NCBI GenBank assembly: GCA_017440935.1
Contig: JAFSAO010000020.1
Span: 77,955 to 141,954 of the forward strand
DNA: 64,000 nucleotides
Direction: 5' to 3'
Source: Opitutales bacterium
Lineage (GTDB): Bacteria > Verrucomicrobiota > Verrucomicrobiia > Opitutales > UBA953
Position numbers and translations under genes: made by a program. Under the pieces are notes generated by a model, which saw only the letters and a program-made list of their open reading frames with translations, was not told the DNA's origin and searched no databases. Below are positions 20,024 through 49,703 of this stretch, one piece after another (the first letter of the stretch is position 1; each line of letters starts with the position of its first letter).

Positions 20024-20375
20024 CCGCAGCGAACGCGGGAACCACGGAACTTACGGAATTATTTTTTTTTTGGTTTATCCACGAATTCACACAAATTTCA
20101 CGGATTTTGTCATGGAGGACAGCCGTCCCGGCTGTCCTTTTTCATTCTTTTCTTCCGACTATTACCCTGTGATATGCCCCGCAATCCCTTTGTGCATAAA
20201 GAACTTATACACAAAAGCTACCTGCATGGTAGTAAATAAGGCAAAATGTCTCAAAAACGACTTGATTTGGGTGAAAAAAAAAAAAGTAGAATCATTGAAG
20301 TTTTGTTTTTTTGCGCATTTCCGCCCATTAACAAAACGGCAATTTTTTTTTTTCAATCTGATCAAAAACATAGAT
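20024..20375. other. Intergenic region between dinB and the PEP-CTERM gene
   Basis: About 350 bases. The left part holds a terminator at 20116-20143. The right part is AT-rich leader sequence with long A and T runs immediately before the PEP-CTERM start. An apparent longer reading frame through this region into that gene is not used because the signal peptide begins at 20376. Two near-matches to a DnaA box (TTATCCACG at about 20073, TTATACACA at about 20205) are not enough to call an origin. Confidence 0.5.
20116..20143 (+). terminator. Terminator downstream of dinB
   Basis: Stem AGGACAGCCG / CGGCTGTCCT around a three-base loop, followed by TTTTT. Confidence 0.85.
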
Positions 20376-22748
20376 ATGAACAAAATGAATAAATTCGTTC
20401 TCTCAACTCTCGTCGCGGCAGCCGCGATGACCTCAACCGCGTGGGCAGAAGGCACGGAAGAAACAACGCCGGTTTTGTCGACTCTTACTGTCAATAGTTC
20501 CGCCAAGGAAGGCGACGAAGGCTTCGGCGTGACGACATTCGCCACGGTCGATGCAGCTGTAAAAGTAGCACAAAGTGCGGCCGGGGCAATCATTGATCTC
20601 GGAACACTTTCCCGCCCTGCTGATTTCCCCTTGCGAAATGACGATTCGACTCTTTGGCGCACTAATGGGTGCTATACGTTCACGGGCGGCAATTATGGCG
20701 ATTTGTTTTCTTGGATTCAAACACCGAAACCCAGCGAGGCTTCCGGTGTTGATATTGACATTACTTTCGATGAGGCAAAGATTGTCGTCGGAAAATTCCG
20801 CCTTGACAACGGAGCTTCACTGACGATTGCGGATTCTCATTTGGATTCGCGTGGCTATCTTTCGGATAATCGTGGTTGGACAACTTTTTATGGGGATTCG
20901 ACAATTAATATTAAAAACTCGGTTGTTGGTTATCATGCAAAGGACAACGCTACTGATGGGCGCGATGCTGATTCCCGCAATATTGTCGCAGGCGATAAGA
21001 CCAAGGACTATTCCTCTTATGATGCAGGTATGGTTTTCGGCGGTTCCGGTGTGATGACAGTCGAAAATTCCACCATCTTTGCATTTACGGAGGGGATCAA
21101 TGGATATGGAGCCTTAGGGGTTATGGACCGAGGTCTTATGGAATTTAAAGATTCCGCTGTATATGCTCATTCGTTTACGGTCGGAAAGAGTAATAGCAAT
21201 GCTACTGTTGGACGTGACGGCGAGGTTGCGACGATGATTTTGAATAATTCCGTGTTGAAAAGTATCAACGGAGACGCTCCTTACTCTCTTACGGTTGGAG
21301 GCGAGGTTGCCGGAGCTCTTATTCTCGAAAACAATGCAGAAATCGATCATGGCGCGGCGATGACCGTTAATTCCAACGGATCTGTTTCCGTCTCGGATTC
21401 CTCATTGAAAGTCGGTTCTATCACCAACAACGGCACGATTAACATCACTGATTCGACCTTTGTCGCCAACACGGTAAAAGGGAATAGCTACACAACAGGT
21501 GATGCTTCTGACGGAATCTACATCAACGGAAAATCCTCGATTAAGGGAACTTTTGATGACGCCAATCTCAAATTCCGTGTCGGCCAAACATGGAATGGAA
21601 CGACTAATACTTCTCCCGTGGCAGACGGGAAGCTCCACCATGATGTCACCATTGATTCTTCGAAAATTTCCGTTGCGTTTGCACAGTTTTACGATGCGAA
21701 AGTTACGTTTACGTCTGACACGGAGCTTACGATGAATAAAGGCTATCTGATGACAAGTTTTGCGGAACTGAACGTTGCAGAGGGGAAAACGCTTACCGTT
21801 AACGGAAAAGCGGTTATCGACGGCGCAACTGTTTTTGGGACCGGAAACTATTGCTTCACAGGTGCGCAATTCAATACACAGGACAATAACTGGAAGAACA
21901 GCGTGGTGACGGTCGCAAAAGGCGCAACTCTTGAACATACTGGGGCTTCAGGGTTTGGTGTCTATGAAAATATGACGGTTGAAGGAACGGTTAATGTTAG
22001 CAAATCGACGGTTTTGGTTGGGTATTCCCAGCGTGGATTTAGTGATGGGGCGATCTTAAAAATCGACGGAGGAACTTTCACCGCGTCCGCGAATGCTGTA
22101 ATTTACGGAGAGAAATATGATGATGCCGCTAATGAGGACGGGGAAGTGGGATATGGACCTGTCGAGGATCATGTCGGGCAGATTTATGAATCTACTCTCG
22201 AGGTCATCAATGGTGCGACAGCAACGTTCGGCGGCACGATTACTAATAACGGCACGATCGAGGTCGGAGAAGGTTCGACACTTACGGCGAGCGTGATCAC
22301 GGGAACGGGCGATATTGTTCTCGCGGGAACGCTCAACGTCGGTTCTCTCAAGGCGGATGAATTGACGATTGTTGTTGGAGATGCCGGGGCTCTTGTGACG
22401 CAGGCGGCTGTGATGCTTTTGGCTGAAGGAGAATCTGAATCCTCCGTTTCGGTCAACAAACTGACGGTTGTCGCAGACAATGCGGAAGGGCTTGATCTTT
22501 CCACGATTCTTTCGTCGAAAGTTGGAGCAGATATGGCGGGCGTGATTGAAAATTCTATCGCGAACGAGTCTTCTCCTGTTGAGTTCGTGCTTCAAGACTC
22601 CAAGGGCTTGGAATACACGGTGACGACGGATGCAAACGGAAACGTTAAGGTCGGCGCGTTGACGCCCGAGCCGTCTGCGTTCGGCTTGTTGGCGGGATTG
22701 GGAGCGATTGCGCTCGCGGTTTCGCGTCGCCGTCGTAACCGTCGCTAA
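20376..22748 (+). CDS. Large PEP-CTERM sorting-domain surface protein
   Basis: A 790-residue exported protein: N-terminal signal (MNKMNKFVLSTLVAAAAMTS, mature from about EGTEETTP), a long beta-helix-like body rich in Asn, Gly, Ser and Thr with many short strands and SNATV / NNGTI-type turns, and a PEP-CTERM end (PEP motif, SAFGLLAGLGAIALAV, basic SRRRRNRR). The body reads like a passenger of adhesins (repeated xxLxVxxGATxxxxG strands), but no barrel follows, so export would be through the exosortase route. The ATG at 20376 is used; a second ATG three codons on is equally possible. The tail is similar in plan to that of the protein at 7056. Function as adhesin or matrix protein is inference. 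Confidence 0.85.
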   Translation: MNKMNKFVLSTLVAAAAMTSTAWAEGTEETTPVLSTLTVNSSAKEGDEGFGVTTFATVDAAVKVAQSAAGAIIDLGTLSRPADFPLRNDDSTLWRTNGCYTFTGGNYGDLFSWIQTPKPSEASGVDIDITFDEAKIVVGKFRLDNGASLTIADSHLDSRGYLSDNRGWTTFYGDSTINIKNSVVGYHAKDNATDGRDADSRNIVAGDKTKDYSSYDAGMVFGGSGVMTVENSTIFAFTEGINGYGALGVMDRGLMEFKDSAVYAHSFTVGKSNSNATVGRDGEVATMILNNSVLKSINGDAPYSLTVGGEVAGALILENNAEIDHGAAMTVNSNGSVSVSDSSLKVGSITNNGTINITDSTFVANTVKGNSYTTGDASDGIYINGKSSIKGTFDDANLKFRVGQTWNGTTNTSPVADGKLHHDVTIDSSKISVAFAQFYDAKVTFTSDTELTMNKGYLMTSFAELNVAEGKTLTVNGKAVIDGATVFGTGNYCFTGAQFNTQDNNWKNSVVTVAKGATLEHTGASGFGVYENMTVEGTVNVSKSTVLVGYSQRGFSDGAILKIDGGTFTASANAVIYGEKYDDAANEDGEVGYGPVEDHVGQIYESTLEVINGATATFGGTITNNGTIEVGEGSTLTASVITGTGDIVLAGTLNVGSLKADELTIVVGDAGALVTQAAVMLLAEGESESSVSVNKLTVVADNAEGLDLSTILSSKVGADMAGVIENSIANESSPVEFVLQDSKGLEYTVTTDANGNVKVGALTPEPSAFGLLAGLGAIALAVSRRRRNRR

Positions 22749-23047: not shown

Positions 23048-24301
23048 ATGAAACTGACCGGAAATTCCTCTCGGAAGTTTTTTGTTCTGGCGACGGTGCT
23101 CGCGTCGTCGGTGTTTTGCGGATGCGCTTCTGATCCCGCTTCAAAAAATGTTGCGCTTGCCTCGGCGGTTCGCGGTGTAGCGCCGAATTGCGAGCTTCAT
23201 TCCGTGGTTTTGCAGCGTGTTTCGGGAGAAAAGATTTCTGCGAATTTGCTCGTTTCGAGTCCCGGGAAAAGGGCGGAGGAAGTTTCCGTGGATATGGTCG
23301 CGGGAACGCTGACTCCGGCTTCGCAAAGCAAACTTCGTCCCTTTTCCTCCGATCCCGCGAAACCGCGCGTCGGTCCCGCTTCGCCGAGCGAGGATGAATT
23401 GCTGGACAAACAGCTTTTCCGTGCCGTGCGCTCCGGAAATATTTCCGCCGCTCAGAAACTGATCAGCGCGGGAGCGAGCCCGAATGCGCCGGAACGCGGT
23501 AAAGAAACGCTCTTGAATCCGCTCGCCATTGCCGTGCTGCGCAACGATTATTCCACGGTTCGTATGCTTTTGCAAAATGGTGCCGATCCTAATATGCGCT
23601 TGCGCTTTGAAAGTATCCAATTCGCGGGAACGTTTGACGAAGGAACGGTAATTCATCTTGCCGCCTGCAACGGAAGTGAGGCGATGGTGCGCCTGCTCGC
23701 CCGCTACGGTGCGGATCTCGACGCGATTTGCGAGTCCGACGAAAAATTTTCCGTCCGCGTCAACGCGCTTGGCTTAGCGCTTAAAATCAAGCGTTACAAT
23801 GTGGTGCGCACGCTTTTGGCAAACGGTGCAAATGCCGACATTCCCTGTCAGATTCGAGCGGATGGCGGTGTTCCCGGTGACCGCAATTTGCCTGTTTTCA
23901 TGAGTGCGTTTGATAATTTTATGCTGAATATTTTCGTGGACGCGGGAGCGAATCTGAACGTGGGCGAAGATATTGCACCGCCGATTATTTTTGCCGTCGA
24001 CACCGGCAACGCTGCGCTCGTCGAAAAAATGTTGCGCTTGGGGGCAAATCCGAATTTTGAGCACGCGGACACGCATTTGCGTCTGCGTAACGGGAAGAAG
24101 ATTTCGGCGGATTGCACGCCAATTTTCCACGTCAAAAATCCGGTGATTGCGGAATTGCTCGTGCGCTCCGGTGCCGATTTGAACCACGAAATCTCGGAGG
24201 GAATTTTTTCACCGAATTATCGTGTGCTCGATGTCGTCGGCGATCCCGTTACGCGGAAATATCTGATTTCCGCAGGCGCGAAAGAGGCTCCGAAAGATTG
24301 A
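23048..24301 (+). CDS. Ankyrin-repeat exported protein (putative lipoprotein)
   Basis: A 417-residue protein with a signal sequence ending at VFCGCASD; Cys at FCGC could be lipidated, though the lipobox is unusual. About residues 120-410 hold ankyrin repeats, with the typical DEDELL start (LDKQLFRAVRSGNISAAQKL), ANAxxGADPN turns (LLQNGADPNMRL, LLARYGADLDA, LRLGANPNFEHAD) and a last repeat before the end. Ankyrin repeats bind other proteins; a role in the cell envelope is inference. The 299 bases before it contain the motif terminator of the previous gene. It is followed by its own motif-pair terminator. Confidence 0.85.
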   Translation: MKLTGNSSRKFFVLATVLASSVFCGCASDPASKNVALASAVRGVAPNCELHSVVLQRVSGEKISANLLVSSPGKRAEEVSVDMVAGTLTPASQSKLRPFSSDPAKPRVGPASPSEDELLDKQLFRAVRSGNISAAQKLISAGASPNAPERGKETLLNPLAIAVLRNDYSTVRMLLQNGADPNMRLRFESIQFAGTFDEGTVIHLAACNGSEAMVRLLARYGADLDAICESDEKFSVRVNALGLALKIKRYNVVRTLLANGANADIPCQIRADGGVPGDRNLPVFMSAFDNFMLNIFVDAGANLNVGEDIAPPIIFAVDTGNAALVEKMLRLGANPNFEHADTHLRLRNGKKISADCTPIFHVKNPVIAELLVRSGADLNHEISEGIFSPNYRVLDVVGDPVTRKYLISAGAKEAPKD

Positions 24302-27584: not shown

Positions 27585-30500
27585 ATGAATTTTTTTGCAG
27601 TATCCCGAAACACGCTGTCGCTGATGACCCTTTTCGCGGCGGGAACGCTGTCGGTTTCGACTCTTTTTGCGGCGGAAACAAACGCGCGCGAGCAAATCTC
27701 CGTTGATTCCGAAGCCGCATTGCGCGCAGCACTTTCGGAAACCTATCAGCCCGACGGAACAACCGAGGAGAGCGACCGCAAATTCCACGATAACGCGGAC
27801 GTTACGCTCGCGGGAAATATCACCGTTACAACAACGCGCACCGAGGAAATCAAAGACGCCGACGGCAATGTTACGGGAACGACGATTTTCGCCGGCAACG
27901 TTATCAACGTTCTTGCCGAAAACGTAAAAATTTTCGGCGGCGGCTTTACAATCGCTTCAAGAGAAATTGCGACCGATATCAACGGTTCGGGCGACATTTT
28001 CTTCCTCAACGGAGTTAAATTATCCGTCGAAAACATTACGTTTACGGGAACGACCGACACCGCGAAAAAAACCGGACGCGTTTTCACCACGGGAAATTCT
28101 CTGCAAACGAAAATCAATATCGGCGCGGGAACGGTTTTTGAAAATCGTCGCCTTGTCGCCGACGAAAAAACGAACTACCGCGCCCAAGGCGGCGCAATCG
28201 TTTCGGCGTGTATTTCCGACGAAATTGCGCTCGCGAGCTCCGCCTCCGGCGACATCGTTTTCAAGGGAAATTTCGCCCACGGGAAAGTGCTTTCTTCGAC
28301 CGATTCGAGCGGCGAAACCGTAACGGAAACCCTCAACGCCGCAGGCGGCGCGGTTTTCGCTTCCGGGCTTCTTTCCGTTTCCGGCACGGGAACGACACTT
28401 TTTGAAAGCAACTCTGCGGTTTCCGACGCGGGAACGGCGTTCGGCGGCGCGGTTTTCATCGTTAACGCAACGCTGAACGGAGACGGCACGTTGAATTCCG
28501 GCTTCGTTTATCCCGATAATGTCATCGACCAAACGGGAACGAAAAAATTCGGTTTGCAGGTTGCAGAAACGACGCTGACTTTTTCCGAAAATTCCGCGCA
28601 GGGCGCAAATGCGCAGGGCGGCGCGCTCGCCGTTTCCGGCGGTTATTTTGACGCGGCGGGAGCAGCAATCTCGTTCTCCCAAAATTCTGCGAAAAATACT
28701 GTTGCCGGCGGAAAGGTTTTCGGCGGCGCAGTCCAAGTCGGCGAGGACGCGCGAGCAACTTTTAACGCGGGAACGACGCTTGCGTTCTCCCAAAATTCCG
28801 CTGTCGCCGGAGCCGAACAAACCACCGCAGGCGGCGGCGCACTCGCCGTTTCGGACTCGACGCTTTCGGCCGCGGGAACAACGACGTTTTCCGGAAACAG
28901 CGTAACTTCCGCGTTCGGCGGTTCCGCGCTTTTCGGCGGCGCGCTCTATGTTTCGGGAACGCTCGAAGACGTAAAAAATCCCGACGGCACGACAACCAAA
29001 GAACACACGACCAACGTTGCGCTTGCGGGAACACTGAATTTCTCCCAAAACGCAGTTTCCGCGACTGCGCTTTCTTCCGAAAAAGACACGGGAACGGCCG
29101 AAAATCCCAAGACTGAAATTATCGAATCTTCGGCACAAGGCGGAGCAATTGCGCTTTTCGGTGGGAAAGTCATTTCCGGCGAAAATTTGACCTCAATCGC
29201 GTTTTCCGAAAATTCCGTTTCCGGAAAAACTTTTGCCCAAGGCGGCGCGCTCGCCTCGCTTTCCGATAAAACGGAATTGGCGTTAGCCGCTTCTTCGGAG
29301 ATTAAATTCGAGCAAAATTCCGCAAATATTCTCGCGCTCGGCTCCGGCGAGGCGCAAACCGCCGGAATCGTTCCCGTCGCGCAGGGCGGCGCAATTTACG
29401 TTTCTGCGGGAACGCTGAATTTGGGAGTAGCCGTGACGCTTTCCGGGAATTTCGCCGATGCTTCCGCGCAAGATGATGCGCTTGCCCAAGGCGGCGCGAT
29501 TTTCCAGAGCGCCGGCAAACTGACGCTCGGCGCGGCGAATTTTTCCGGAAACAAGGTGTTTGCGCGCATTGCCCAAGGCGGCGCAATTTACGCGGCGGGC
29601 GGTGAACAAAATTTTGCGAAAACGACATTCGCGCAAAATCAGGTGCTTGCGGGAACGAATACTTCCGCTCCGGGAACGACTTTCGCTCGCGGCGGCGCAA
29701 TTTTCGTCGAAAGTTCCGCTACGCTGAATTTTTCCGGAACGGCCGAATTTTCCTTAAATTCCGTTCGCGCGGAATCCGCTTCCGGAAATGATGTTGCTGG
29801 AATGCGCTCCGGCGCGGCGGGCGGCGCAATTTATTCTGCGGGAACGCTGAGTTTCGGCGAAGTTTCTTTCGTCAACGGTTCGGCGGTCGTTTCCGGCGAT
29901 ACGAGCGGCGCGGCATTCGGCGGTGCGGTTTACGTCGCGGGCGGAAAGTTTTCGGCAAATACGTTTACGGCGCGCGAAGTTTCCGCCGCCGCGCTCGGCG
30001 ATGCTCAGGGCGGCGCGGTTTATGCGGACGCCGCAGGATTGTTCGACGTTTCCGGTGATTTTACGGTGAGCGGAAGTTCCGCTCGCGGGATTTCCGGCGC
30101 GACTCCGAAAAATGCATCCGGCGGTGCGATTTACGCGGCGGGAACGCTTCGCGTCGGCGGAGATTTTTCGGCGACGGGAAGTTCGGTCTCGGGCGAAAAA
30201 GCATCGGGCGGCGCAATCGCCGTCGCTTCCGGAAATGTTGTCATTTCCGGCACGGGAACGCATGAAATTTCGTTAAATAAAGTAACATCCGCTGCGGGAG
30301 ACGCGCGCGGCGGCGCGATTTCCGTTGACGGCGGAACATTCCGCCAAACGGCGGGAACGCTGACGCTTTCCGGCAATACGGCGACCGCGACGGGCGGAAA
30401 TGCGTTCGGCGGTGCGCTTTATATGCGCGGCGGAGACGTGACGCTCTCGAACGCGACTCTCTCCGGCAATTCCGCAACGGGCGGAAATGCCCACGGCGGC

Positions 30501-33500
30501 GCAATTTACATCGATTCGGGCCTCGCGGGAACGCTTAAACTCGCGGGCAACACGACACTTTCCGGCAATACGGCGGGCGGCGCAGACGACGGAATTTATG
30601 TCGGTGCGGGAACGGGCGCAGTCGGGATTATTTTTGAAACGGCGGCAAAAATTACGGAAAACGAAGACGGAAGCGTTACGCGTTCGGACATCGAAACGGC
30701 GACGATTTCCGACAAAATCACGGCGGACGGCGCAACGCTTTCGCTCACGAAATCGGGTGCGGGAGATTTGACGCTCGGCGAAATTTCCGCGCTCAACGCT
30801 GCGAAAATTTCGATGAATTTTAACGGCGGCGTTTCGACGCTTGGCGGAGAAGTTGCTTCGCTCGAAAAACTTTTCGTCGCAAGCGGAGCGGAAGTTGTGT
30901 TGCAAAAAACGCTCGGCGGCTACGAGTCGGCGGAAATCGCGGGAACGGTCAATGCGACAAGCGGCGCGCGCTGGACGTTTACAAACGGGTCCGAAACCAA
31001 ACTTTCCGGCGCGCTTGCGCTTGACGGCGCGTCGGCTCAAATTTCCGGCACGGCCGCAATTTCCGGCGCGGGAACATTTTCCGTGAAAAACGCGACGAAT
31101 TTTGAATTTGCCGACGCAAACGCGAGCCTTTCCGTTCAAACGCTTTCCGTCGGTGCGGGAACGCTTACGCTCGACGGTGCGGGAACGCTCAACGTTACGG
31201 AAAAACTGATTTTCACGGAAACAGGTGCGGAGATTGCGCTCAACGGTGCGACACTCGGAATTGTCGAAGTCGCACGCACGGCGAAAAACGACGGTTTTTC
31301 CGCAGAAATTTCCGGCACGGGAACGCTCGTGCTCTACACGGAGGCAAATGCGGAAAATCCGCCGAAAAACTTTGAGTTTTCCGATTTTTCGGAAAAAGTG
31401 AAAAATGACGCGACGGGCGAGGAAACGACGACGGTTTACAAAGGCGCGTTTGAAATCGGAAGCGGAATTTCCGTCAAAGCGGGCGTTTCCGTCGGCAACG
31501 GCGTTTCCGTAAAACTTTCTCAAAGCTCGTTGGTCGACGGCTCGAAAAATGTTTTGCTCAACGGCGGAACTTTGCTTACGGACGCGGGCGCGACCTTGGA
31601 ATTGGAATCGCTCACGATTTCCGGAGACGCGGTTTCGACGCTCGGCGCCGCCGGGCAAAACCAGATTTTTAAGACGGTTGAATCCGACACGGGCAAAACC
31701 GATGCGAACGGGAATCCGATTTCGGAAACGAAAACACTTTCCCTCACGGGCAAACTCAATATTACGGGAACGACGAAATTTGTCGGCTCGGTTGTGCTCG
31801 GAAACTCGGGTGAGCTTTCCGGCGCGGGAACGGTTCAGGGAAATGTTTCCGGAAGGGGGACGGTTTCGCTGTCGAATATTGACGGCAATCTGAATGTGGC
31901 AAACGGGAACACGATGAACGTTTCCGATGCGGTTTCCGTTTCGGGAAATGTCGAAGTTTATTCCGACCGCACGGCGGGAACGACGGTGAATGCACAGCTA
32001 CACCTTGCGCAAGGCGCTTCGCTCAATGCGGCGAATTTTAACAACTTCGGTGTGGTTTCCGCAGAATCGGCAACGCTTTCCGGAAATTTGGTCAACGCGG
32101 GAACGCTTTCCGTTGCGAAGGATTCCACGCTGACTTTTGCCGCAGGATCGAAATTCTCCAACGGCTATTCCGACGCGACGGAAACGCTTGCGGGGACGCT
32201 CGATCTTACCGCCGCAAACAGCGCGATTGATTTTTCCCAAATCGCCGACGAGAACAATATCGTTCTCAACAACGGTGTCGTTCGCATTAATTCCGTGAAT
32301 CTGCAAAAAGGCGAAGCGCTTCCGATTCTCGGGATTGACGATGAAACGATTTTTGACGGTCTCAAAATCGAAGATGTCAATCGCTACTCGCTTGAAAACC
32401 GTTTCGTGTGGGACGCTACGGCGGGTGAGCTGATTTTCCTCGGGCTTAACGGAGAACGTTTTCGCGGCACGCTCTACGGCGATTTGCAGCGGGAGTCTAT
32501 CAACGCAACTTATGATTTTATGCGTGCTGCACAGTTTCGTAGCGGCACGCGAATCCTCACGCCGGAACTCTACGGCGCTTACAAGTTGCAGTCGCCGTAT
32601 ATGCGCGGCTACATCGAAAAAGTGCGCCAGCGCGGCGGAGAAGTTTCCGCGCAGCTAGAGGCGAAGCGCAAACGCGAGTTGGAAATGGCGGAAAAACTCA
32701 ATTCGCGCCTGGTCAATTTCTGGGCACAGGCGGATTTTTCCGACGGGAATCAGCGTTCCCGCAAAGGGTTTGACGGCTACGATTCAACGCGCATGAACGT
32801 CTTGGTCGGCGCGTCCATGCCGCTGAAAAATTGGGAGCTCGGAATCGCACTCTCCGGCGGTGACGAAAATTACGAAATGAATTCCGCGGGAACGCGTCAC
32901 GAAGTGGACACGACGGCGACCGGTCTCACCGGATACGCGCAATACAAAAACGATTGGTTCGATTGCTCGTTCGGCGTGGCGGGAATGATGACTTCTTCCG
33001 ATACCGATCGCGGCGAATATTCAGGCGATTTTAACGGTTGGCGCGCGGGCGCGATGACGGAACTCGGCGCAACTTTGCGTGCGCAGAGCTGGTTCGCCTT
33101 GCGCACGTTTGTCGGGCTTTCGGCGGCGTATTCGCATGTCGGTTCGTTCAGCGAAAGCGGAGGTGAGGGCGCACTTTCCGTCGATTCCGACGGTGCGGCG
33201 AGCGTGCGTGCAACCGTCGGGACTTCGGCGGCATTCCTGCTTACCGATACGCTGCAGCTGAAAGTTCACGCGGCGTGGCTGACCGATTTCGGGAACGATA
33301 CCTGTTCGCTTGATGCATATATGCCGTCGACGCACACGGATTACGTGATTGATTCCCGCGAAAACGAATCTTCTTTGCTCGAAGCGGGAGCTACATTGAA
33401 TTGGGCGTTCAGCGAAAGCATGGAAGTTTTCCTCGGCTACACGGGAACGATCGGCGCGGGCGAACGCGTCAACGCGGCATCTCTCGGGTTAAATTACTTT

Positions 33501-33506
33501 TTCTAA
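27585..33506 (+). CDS. Giant autotransporter with chlamydial Pmp-like passenger
   Basis: A 1973-residue surface protein. A signal peptide (about residues 1-31) is followed by a passenger to about residue 1650 with roughly 21 copies of GGA[ILVF] (for example AQGGAIYAAG, FGGALYVSG) and many FxxN turns (FSENSA, FSQNSA, FSGNSV). This pair of motifs is the signature of polymorphic membrane proteins (Pmp) of Chlamydia. The C-terminal beta-barrel (about 1690-1973) begins near the RYSLENRF segment, runs through LNFWAQADF and the FSESMEVFL region, and ends in Phe (GLNYFF), as outer-membrane barrels do. The start at 27585 is chosen for the signal peptide; the frame is open further upstream. The gene holds about 32 copies of the genome motif, nearly all in one orientation. 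Confidence 0.9.
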   Translation: MNFFAVSRNTLSLMTLFAAGTLSVSTLFAAETNAREQISVDSEAALRAALSETYQPDGTTEESDRKFHDNADVTLAGNITVTTTRTEEIKDADGNVTGTTIFAGNVINVLAENVKIFGGGFTIASREIATDINGSGDIFFLNGVKLSVENITFTGTTDTAKKTGRVFTTGNSLQTKINIGAGTVFENRRLVADEKTNYRAQGGAIVSACISDEIALASSASGDIVFKGNFAHGKVLSSTDSSGETVTETLNAAGGAVFASGLLSVSGTGTTLFESNSAVSDAGTAFGGAVFIVNATLNGDGTLNSGFVYPDNVIDQTGTKKFGLQVAETTLTFSENSAQGANAQGGALAVSGGYFDAAGAAISFSQNSAKNTVAGGKVFGGAVQVGEDARATFNAGTTLAFSQNSAVAGAEQTTAGGGALAVSDSTLSAAGTTTFSGNSVTSAFGGSALFGGALYVSGTLEDVKNPDGTTTKEHTTNVALAGTLNFSQNAVSATALSSEKDTGTAENPKTEIIESSAQGGAIALFGGKVISGENLTSIAFSENSVSGKTFAQGGALASLSDKTELALAASSEIKFEQNSANILALGSGEAQTAGIVPVAQGGAIYVSAGTLNLGVAVTLSGNFADASAQDDALAQGGAIFQSAGKLTLGAANFSGNKVFARIAQGGAIYAAGGEQNFAKTTFAQNQVLAGTNTSAPGTTFARGGAIFVESSATLNFSGTAEFSLNSVRAESASGNDVAGMRSGAAGGAIYSAGTLSFGEVSFVNGSAVVSGDTSGAAFGGAVYVAGGKFSANTFTAREVSAAALGDAQGGAVYADAAGLFDVSGDFTVSGSSARGISGATPKNASGGAIYAAGTLRVGGDFSATGSSVSGEKASGGAIAVASGNVVISGTGTHEISLNKVTSAAGDARGGAISVDGGTFRQTAGTLTLSGNTATATGGNAFGGALYMRGGDVTLSNATLSGNSATGGNAHGGAIYIDSGLAGTLKLAGNTTLSGNTAGGADDGIYVGAGTGAVGIIFETAAKITENEDGSVTRSDIETATISDKITADGATLSLTKSGAGDLTLGEISALNAAKISMNFNGGVSTLGGEVASLEKLFVASGAEVVLQKTLGGYESAEIAGTVNATSGARWTFTNGSETKLSGALALDGASAQISGTAAISGAGTFSVKNATNFEFADANASLSVQTLSVGAGTLTLDGAGTLNVTEKLIFTETGAEIALNGATLGIVEVARTAKNDGFSAEISGTGTLVLYTEANAENPPKNFEFSDFSEKVKNDATGEETTTVYKGAFEIGSGISVKAGVSVGNGVSVKLSQSSLVDGSKNVLLNGGTLLTDAGATLELESLTISGDAVSTLGAAGQNQIFKTVESDTGKTDANGNPISETKTLSLTGKLNITGTTKFVGSVVLGNSGELSGAGTVQGNVSGRGTVSLSNIDGNLNVANGNTMNVSDAVSVSGNVEVYSDRTAGTTVNAQLHLAQGASLNAANFNNFGVVSAESATLSGNLVNAGTLSVAKDSTLTFAAGSKFSNGYSDATETLAGTLDLTAANSAIDFSQIADENNIVLNNGVVRINSVNLQKGEALPILGIDDETIFDGLKIEDVNRYSLENRFVWDATAGELIFLGLNGERFRGTLYGDLQRESINATYDFMRAAQFRSGTRILTPELYGAYKLQSPYMRGYIEKVRQRGGEVSAQLEAKRKRELEMAEKLNSRLVNFWAQADFSDGNQRSRKGFDGYDSTRMNVLVGASMPLKNWELGIALSGGDENYEMNSAGTRHEVDTTATGLTGYAQYKNDWFDCSFGVAGMMTSSDTDRGEYSGDFNGWRAGAMTELGATLRAQSWFALRTFVGLSAAYSHVGSFSESGGEGALSVDSDGAASVRATVGTSAAFLLTDTLQLKVHAAWLTDFGNDTCSLDAYMPSTHTDYVIDSRENESSLLEAGATLNWAFSESMEVFLGYTGTIGAGERVNAASLGLNYFF

Positions 33507-47510: not shown

Positions 47511-49550
47511 TTAGAAACGATAACTGCCGCGCAGATAGATACGATGTTCTTTCGCATCGGAGCCGTCGGCGTAAGCATATCCGGCTCCAATCGAAATGTT
47601 TTCCGTTAGGTCCGTTCCGGCATCGATATTTGCTTCGACAAAATCCCGTTCTCCGCGATTTCCGAGCACGCTTGCCGTCGTGTTTCCTCGGGAAACTTCG
47701 ACGTCGAGGCGATCATCGATGCACAAATGTGCCCACGCCGCGCCGAGCGAAACGAATGTCGGCAAATCCGCGAGGGAAAAATCTGCGCGCACACGCAATC
47801 CCGGTTTGATTTCAACGTCATACGCATCCGTCCCCGAATAAGTATTTGCCCTGTCGGAAAAGCGCTCCGAATCCGTGAAAGCATAGGCGATCGACGTATA
47901 GGGGTTGAGGCGGAGCCAATTCGTCAGCTCGAAATTCGTCCCGATTTCGCCCTGCACGGAATACGTCCACGAGGAAAATTCGCCGAGATAACGCGTTCCC
48001 GCAAAAGACCGGGAGAAGTCGTTGTCCGATTTAGCGAATCGTGTCTGCAAAAATGCATACGTTCCCGCGTCGGTAATCGGAACGAAGAAAAATGCGGAAA
48101 CGCCGATTTCCTGTGCATCAATTTCGGAAGAATCCGATTCCGTCGACGTGTTTCCGGATTCGAGCATTGCTCCCGCCGTGCCGCATCGGAATGCTTTTTT
48201 CAAACCGAGCCAAATTGTGTTGCTTGAGTAATCGTAGGCGTCAAAACCGTCTGTAGAGGAAACTTCGCCGGACATTCCGGAATAGGCGATGGCAAATTCC
48301 CAAGACTTTTCGGAAAGAGGTGCGTTTTGCGCTCCTCCGGGAATTTCCCCTGTCGCTGCTTGCGAGACTTCTCCTCGGGAAACCGCGGTTCCGCCGATTG
48401 CGGGTTTGCGGAAATTCGTTCCCGCGATTTCGTTTGCCAAAAATTGCTCGGCGCGGTCAAGCGCAACGAATGTGCGGCGAAGGCGGGCGTAAGCGTCGGA
48501 AGCGATAATTTCGCCCGTCGCTGCACTCACGTTGTGGCGTGCTTGGTCGTAGTCCGCAACGTCAAGAATCGTGTTTTCATCGTAGAGCGCAACTGCGGCT
48601 TCTGCGTTCCCGCCGACGGCTGCCGTCGCTTCCGCCGTGCTTTTTCGGACCGTTTTCAGAAGAAGTTGCCCGTTAGCATCAGCCTCCGTGACGGTTTTAT
48701 AAAGAACGGCGTCCGCCACATATTGTCCGGAAAGCGTGGAAAGCAGCGCGCTTGTCGCTCCCGTGACGATGGCATATTCCTTATTCATGAGCGATTTCGC
48801 CGAAACGTTTCCGGAAATAGCGAGCTGTGTTCCCGCGAGCAAAGTTACGCTGTCTGCACCGGAGAAATCGAGTTCGGTAAATTTGTCGGTCGCAGAATCG
48901 TAGGATAGAACAATTCGTCCGCCGATTGTCGTATTCCCGCCGAGAGAGAGCTTGGCACCGTTTCCGACAAGGTGAAGCCCGCCGGCAAACGTGTTGACGG
49001 AACCGGATTCAAAAGTAACGGTCGCTCCCGCTTCAATGGTCGTATTTCCGCCGATGGTGGTGACGGAAGTCGCGCCGAAGGTTACGTTTGCGCCGGTGCC
49101 GATTTTGAGAGAACTTCCGCGCGAAGCGTCAATCCCGCCGCCGAAGGTGTATGTTCCCGCATCGCGAATGACCATGATGTCGTCGTTATCCGCAAGAAAT
49201 ATATCGTTAGAAACTCCTCCCGCCTTGTTCCCGCTGAACGAAATGGTCGTTCCCGCGCCGATAAAAAACACGTTGTCGTCGGCAAAAATCGCGCCGCCTT
49301 TTCCTCCGGCAGTGTTATTGGTGAAAGTGAAATTTCCGGAAATGGTGAGATTGCCGTCGGAGAAAATTGCACCGCCGTGGCGCGTTGCGGACTTGTTTTC
49401 GACCGTGACGGGAGCGGTTCCGCCCATGACGCAGTCTTCATGAAGAAGTTCCCAGCCGCCGTCGAGACCGTAAATGCCGTCAGCAAAAGCAAACGAGGCA
49501 CCGAAGAGAAGTGTTACGGGCAATGCCCCGAGTAGTTTTGTAGCTTTCAT
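47511..49550 (-). CDS. Second Pmp-like autotransporter
   Basis: A 679-residue outer-membrane protein. A signal peptide at residues 1-23 (from MKATKLLGALPVTLLFGASF) is followed by a short passenger in which GGAIFSDG and GGAIFADD motifs lie among FxxN-type turns (FTFTNNTA, FSGNKA), again like Pmp proteins. A linker follows, and the last 280 residues are an autotransporter barrel ending YLRGSYRF, with a terminal Phe. The start is chosen at 49550 for the signal peptide; upstream codons add about 26 non-signal residues. It is a smaller relative of the giant one at 27585, on the opposite strand. Confidence 0.87.
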   Translation of the reverse strand: MKATKLLGALPVTLLFGASFAFADGIYGLDGGWELLHEDCVMGGTAPVTVENKSATRHGGAIFSDGNLTISGNFTFTNNTAGGKGGAIFADDNVFFIGAGTTISFSGNKAGGVSNDIFLADNDDIMVIRDAGTYTFGGGIDASRGSSLKIGTGANVTFGATSVTTIGGNTTIEAGATVTFESGSVNTFAGGLHLVGNGAKLSLGGNTTIGGRIVLSYDSATDKFTELDFSGADSVTLLAGTQLAISGNVSAKSLMNKEYAIVTGATSALLSTLSGQYVADAVLYKTVTEADANGQLLLKTVRKSTAEATAAVGGNAEAAVALYDENTILDVADYDQARHNVSAATGEIIASDAYARLRRTFVALDRAEQFLANEIAGTNFRKPAIGGTAVSRGEVSQAATGEIPGGAQNAPLSEKSWEFAIAYSGMSGEVSSTDGFDAYDYSSNTIWLGLKKAFRCGTAGAMLESGNTSTESDSSEIDAQEIGVSAFFFVPITDAGTYAFLQTRFAKSDNDFSRSFAGTRYLGEFSSWTYSVQGEIGTNFELTNWLRLNPYTSIAYAFTDSERFSDRANTYSGTDAYDVEIKPGLRVRADFSLADLPTFVSLGAAWAHLCIDDRLDVEVSRGNTTASVLGNRGERDFVEANIDAGTDLTENISIGAGYAYADGSDAKEHRIYLRGSYRF

Positions 49551-49703
49551 ATAAAACGTGATTGAATTTGATTGAGACCAGGAACGAGACGATAGTGCTA
49601 CACTATATTTGTGTAAAGGAAATAACACTAAAATGGTAGACTTGAAGAGTCTTCACGTCGGAACGCTTTGTTTTCGGAAAGAAAAGAAAATTTGTTCTTT
49701 TTT

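Follow-up and report, generated by a model that had tools for sequence, protein, structure and literature searches.

The gene at 27585-33506 on the forward strand of the window, by which we mean the whole 64,000-nucleotide stretch of Opitutales bacterium DNA that was analysed, encodes what we consider likely to be an autotransporter of the classical kind (type Va) that carries a widespread repeat module and most probably serves as a surface adhesin. The repeat region of this protein is of the type found in the polymorphic membrane proteins (Pmps) of Chlamydia in sequence, in spacing and, as modelled, in predicted rung structure. Pmps draw interest both as adhesins and as vaccine antigens, and it is often said that only Chlamydiaceae have them. 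The parts of the window protein, and a second autotransporter encoded in the window, are as follows.

27585-27674, forward strand: putative signal peptide (MNFFAVSR...TLFAA, residues 1-30), assigned by visual inspection of the sequence
27675-28187, forward strand: cap at the N-terminus of the passenger, devoid of GGA motifs
28188-30614, forward strand: Pmp-type repeat region, predicted right-handed beta-helix, with 21 GGA[ILV] motifs and most of the FxxN motifs (rung profile, AlphaFold2, VIA-align)
30615-32501, forward strand: stem of about 630 residues, mostly beta and without Pmp motifs, occupying the position of the Pmp middle domain without matching it
32502-32717, forward strand: probable helical linker into the barrel (sequence, and a helix in a low-confidence model)
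32718-33503, forward strand: C-terminal type Va autotransporter barrel with the end LGLNYFF (PF03797, 111.7 bits)
47511-49628, reverse strand: another autotransporter, compact at 705 aa and bearing two Pmp-type repeats (PF03797 81.6 bits; PF02415 24.1 bits, over the cut-off)

The window protein starts with ATG and is 1973 aa long; a sequence-only reading made earlier had both its coordinates and its count of about 21 GGA[ILVF] motifs correct. Residues 1-30 run from a short charged start through a hydrophobic stretch to an AXA-like end. The barrel that was claimed for the C-terminus is there, with PF03797 aligning over residues 1712-1953 at E = 6.4e-32 and far above its cut-off of 26 bits. An NCBIfam search of the protein gave no match, and a search of PDB sequences brought up a phage protein at E = 0.36 and nothing else.

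All 21 GGA[ILV] motifs lie within residues 202-974, GGAF not being among them, and FxxN occurs 17 times. In 2000 shuffles of residues 1-1080, GGA[ILV] is found 0.85 times on average and at most 5 times, and FxxN 3.5 times on average and at most 14 times, so the abundance of both motifs that drew attention to this protein is far beyond shuffle expectation. The spacing is also that of Pmps. The pattern GGA[ILV]-x(14,18)-FxxN, which is the published rung spacing (PMC11166332), is present 7 times in its strict form and 10 times when relaxed, and the chlamydial Pmps sampled have 1-13 of each. The gap from GGA to FxxN is 13-20 residues with a median of 15 in the window protein, and 14-19.5 (10th-90th percentile), again with a median of 15, in Chlamydia; the gap from FxxN to the next GGA is variable in both, at 8-29 and 4-32 residues, respectively.

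A rung profile was built from chlamydial Pmps only, using 178 GGA...FxxN stretches; the Pmps that supplied this and the other chlamydial profiles were taken from Chlamydiaceae genomes and located by way of their middle domain, PF07548. With null2 off, the profile gives the window protein 82 bits, against 13.5 bits for the best of 300 shuffles. Control autotransporters from the same genome and from Proteobacteria score 12.8 bits or less, with the exception of the 47511-49628 protein at 34 bits. Because the window protein goes unreported when the HMMER composition correction (null2) is on, the evidence from the rung profile rests on those shuffles and controls. PF02415, the Pfam version of the repeat, scores 14.5 bits, which is under its curated cut-off of 20.6. 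Of the profiles that the sequence-only reading had called for, that of the autotransporter barrel is over its cut-off and PF02415 falls short of its own; the chlamydial rung profile matches with null2 off and not with it on.

AlphaFold2, given an input of just two rows that are the two halves of the repeat region, models residues 590-1010 as a regular right-handed beta-helix of 12 rungs with pLDDT 85.5 and pTM 0.88. Every one of the 12 rungs has the order strand, GGA turn, strand, and in all 8 modelled rungs that contain an FxxN-like motif, the motif is positioned at a turn. In nearly all of those 8, the F ends a strand and the N lies at the turn, after which come a short strand and the loop. 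The predicted register agrees with the motif positions published for Pmps (PMC10715098). In VIA-align, the passenger model matches right-handed beta-helix proteins at Z values as high as 24, in line with the helix expected for residues 590-1010; Foldseek with the same model gave no match below E = 0.1. The stem was modelled from single sequence as residues 960-1700 with low confidence (pLDDT 51), a model that was set aside; in it a helix is predicted near the barrel.

The top structural matches, with Z from 24 to 17, are alginate epimerases and polysaccharide lyases, which brings up the reading that the passenger is an enzyme, such as a surface-displayed polysaccharide epimerase or lyase. We hold this to be highly improbable. 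The matches have 6-14% sequence identity and a Foldseek E over 0.1, as for a generic right-handed beta-helix, the rungs are highly regular, and searches of Pfam and NCBIfam bring up no enzyme family. Given that there is no family match and that the structural likeness is that of the generic fold, an enzyme function was rejected.

The main question is whether repeats and a barrel suffice to make this protein a Pmp, as the sequence-only reading had supposed in taking that combination to define them. They do not. The Pmp family also has the middle domain PF07548 (PMC11166332), and that domain was not found in the window protein either by PF07548 (Pfam, genome search) or by a profile made from 28 chlamydial Pmps. 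A further feature described for Pmps is an Asp, conserved in Rung-0, from which the Asn ladder starts (PMC10715098). The window barrel scores 13.7 bits with a profile of chlamydial Pmp barrels, within the range of unrelated autotransporters, versus 92.4 bits with a proteobacterial profile. In a tree of 100 barrels, chlamydial Pmps and the Pmp-like proteins of an Akkermansia-like genus described below form one clade with 97-98% SH-aLRT support, and the window barrel is on the other side, beside autotransporters of its own genome, with 98% support. A search of 384 genomes from the class finds the nearest barrel subfamily only in its own genus, and the next matches are own-genome paralogues and Akkermansia-like barrels. 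AU tests of a tree with the window family joined to the Pmp barrels do not reject it (p = 0.44 with 46 rows and p = 0.60 with 100 rows), and with 100 rows the joined tree surpasses the quickly built unconstrained tree by 6.6 log units. The barrel phylogeny that had been proposed as a check is accordingly split, with the tree and the profiles placing the window barrel off the Pmps and the AU tests allowing it to be joined to them.

A true Pmp that has diverged, whether from a PVC ancestor or by gain from Chlamydia, with its middle domain lost or overwritten, would account for the match of the chlamydial rung profile to the repeat region, would be permitted by the AU tests, and would have a precedent in the other verrucomicrobial genus that has full Pmp homologues. 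Nevertheless we think it quite unlikely, in view of the missing middle domain, of a Pmp-barrel score of 13.7 bits where the Akkermansia-like proteins have 174-197, of the strongly supported position of the window barrel elsewhere in the 100-barrel tree, and of nearest barrels that come from its own genus and genome. As the AU tests allow a joined barrel clade, the case against membership is founded on the profile scores and on the failure to find a middle domain; on these sequence comparisons, the window protein is on present evidence probably a relative of the Pmp family in design and not a member of it.

The precedent just mentioned is genus g52, of the same class and with genomes of about 3 Mb, which we take to be Akkermansia-like from an Akkermansia 16S primer site that is present with 1-2 mismatches in 3 of the 8 g52 genomes searched. 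It encodes proteins of about 1000 residues in which the repeats are combined with the Pmp middle region and with a barrel of Pmp type. The middle region is matched by the profile from chlamydial Pmps at E = 1e-14 to 1e-22, with PF07548 over its cut-off in three genomes, and the barrels that score 174-197 bits with the Pmp barrel profile have 46-71 with the generic one. These are full three-part Pmp homologues outside Chlamydiae (L221-L228, in genomes G075, G136, G268, G279, G087, G164 and G084). At one locus, L226, three of these frames follow one another on a single strand, as in the chlamydial pmp clusters, although two of them run off the ends of the stretch. PF07548 is found in 20 of 151 Chlamydiota genomes, with 9-22 copies each, all of them about 1.0-1.3 Mb in size as in Chlamydiaceae; in Verrucomicrobiota it is in practice confined to g52. 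So narrow a spread leans toward transfer over vertical descent. The suggestion that a verrucomicrobial Pmp-like adhesin would point to an ancestral PVC family or to transfer fits the three-part proteins of g52; the window protein is without the middle domain, and by profile score its barrel is not of the Pmp type. The homologues of g52 would make the origin of Pmps testable, and would open Pmp structure and function to study in bacteria whose growth requires no host cells.

The FxxN/GGA pattern is not unique to Chlamydia, and its repeats outside that genus are already known, more than 100 non-chlamydial species having been counted with them (PMC10715098). PF02415 has matches in E. coli as well as in 68 of 388 Verrucomicrobiota genomes (42 of 198 genera), and with so wide a spread it was rejected as evidence of kinship. 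Some relatives of the window genome carry Pmp-type repeats on PEP-CTERM tails (L018, L240, L250). In L240 (G022:C68) the frame is 3157 residues long with 45 GGA[ILV] and 42 FxxN, a PEP-CTERM tail and no barrel; a further frame, L243 (G054:C17), is 1138 aa long with 16 FxxN and 4 GGA[ILV], and in it neither a barrel nor a PEP-CTERM end is clear. Viral contigs were considered as a source of relatives, and none were found.

How the repeats came to be alike is a separate matter. They may have arisen independently, FxxN and GGA[ILV] being suited to a compact rung with an Asn ladder, in which case they resemble Pmps by convergence; such a reading concerns the origin of the repeats and is compatible with the type Va autotransporter reading of the window protein. 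Archaea, trichomonads and Phycisphaerae have motifs of this kind too, in rungs of differing overall shape (PMC10715098), the matches of PF02415 extend to E. coli and all those verrucomicrobial genera, and by profile search the barrel and stem of the window protein are not Pmp-like. Set against this, the likeness to Chlamydia goes beyond the motifs alone to the register and spacing of the rungs, and most other autotransporters of the same genome are without such repeats, although both of these observations are compatible with convergence too. We give convergence a substantial chance, somewhat short of even. As a more speculative proposal, which we rate as rather less probable than not, Pmp-type passengers would be one exchangeable repeat module common to animal-associated PVC bacteria; chlamydial Pmps would be a branch of a verrucomicrobial (Akkermansia-like) autotransporter radiation passed between both lineages, and in the window protein that module would be joined to a barrel of unrelated origin.

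Orthologues of the window protein are found in four congeners at 57-85% identity. The flanking glycosyltransferase and fmt genes are conserved in three of these, and fmt in the fourth. GC3 of the gene is 0.60, among neighbors at 0.58-0.63, and with composition like that of its neighbors and a locus conserved in congeners, a recent transfer of the gene was rejected. Across the five orthologues, conservation is 90-91% at motif residues, 73% in strands and 67.5% in loops, and dN/dS is 0.38-0.48 for loops, 0.22-0.34 for rung cores and 0.07-0.21 for the barrel, as compared with 0.04-0.05 for the neighboring fmt. By these rates the gene changes fast but under constraint, as is expected for a surface protein.

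The classical autotransporter that we favor would be exported by Sec, and would have its C-terminal barrel in the outer membrane, with the passenger passing through it and folding into a long beta-helix on the outside. About 21-22 Pmp-type rungs would make up the outer part of this helix, and in each rung the F of FxxN would end a strand, the N would make the turn, a variable loop would protrude, and GGA[ILV] would form the return turn. The barrel and stem presumably derive from autotransporters of its own lineage and not from the Pmp family, with the Pmp-type repeats being a module that Verrucomicrobiota may put on different surface anchors. By analogy, the protein is probably an adhesin, and might attach to mucus, to the host or to other cells in the gut. 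That a gut relative has the same rung while differing in its remaining parts suggests a general use of the repeat as a building block, and a structural role for the FxxN and GGA motifs in place of one as binding sites specific to Chlamydia.

The 1.8-Mb genome to which the window belongs (G000) has eight autotransporter barrels, on contigs C12, C14, C18 and C20, in frames that include 2434, 2760 and 4719 residues, with three on C12 within about 22 kb. The 47511-49628 protein is a different gene from the window protein, related to it in design, and has a relative that is 82% identical in genome G005. Elsewhere in the window, there are an 892-aa protein with a PEP-CTERM-like end at 20070-22748 (+), scoring 19.6 bits, just below the cut-off of 20.7, and a 417-aa ankyrin-repeat protein at 23048-24301 (+).

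Comparison with known systems places the window protein as follows. With chlamydial Pmps it shares FxxN/GGA[ILV] rungs that agree in spacing and in predicted register, loops of variable sequence that project from the rungs, a C-terminal autotransporter barrel and, going by visual inspection, a putative signal peptide; the Pmps differ in being composed of the PF02415 repeat, the PF07548 middle domain and the PF03797 barrel, where the window protein has its stem of about 630 residues and a generic-scoring barrel, and their genes form a tandem cluster whereas the window gene is single at its locus. A Pmp-like autotransporter of Akkermansia glycaniphila, A0A1C7PBX1, was published in 2024 (PMC11166332). 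Going by the published description, it and the window protein are both verrucomicrobial autotransporters with a long passenger of Pmp-type rungs. The proteins of the Akkermansia-like genus go further, having the Pmp middle domain that the window protein is without, and a barrel that scores as Pmp-type where its own scores as generic. PEP-CTERM proteins with Pmp repeats, from the same family and order (L240, L018, L250/L024), have the repeat type in common with it but end in a sorting tail where it ends in a barrel. Finally, generic type Va autotransporters, as in Pollutimonas and the seven other barrels of its own genome, have a barrel, a signal peptide (putative in the window protein) and a beta-helical passenger in common with it, and what sets the window protein apart from them is its Pmp-type rungs, which among the other passengers checked are seen only in the 47511-49628 protein.
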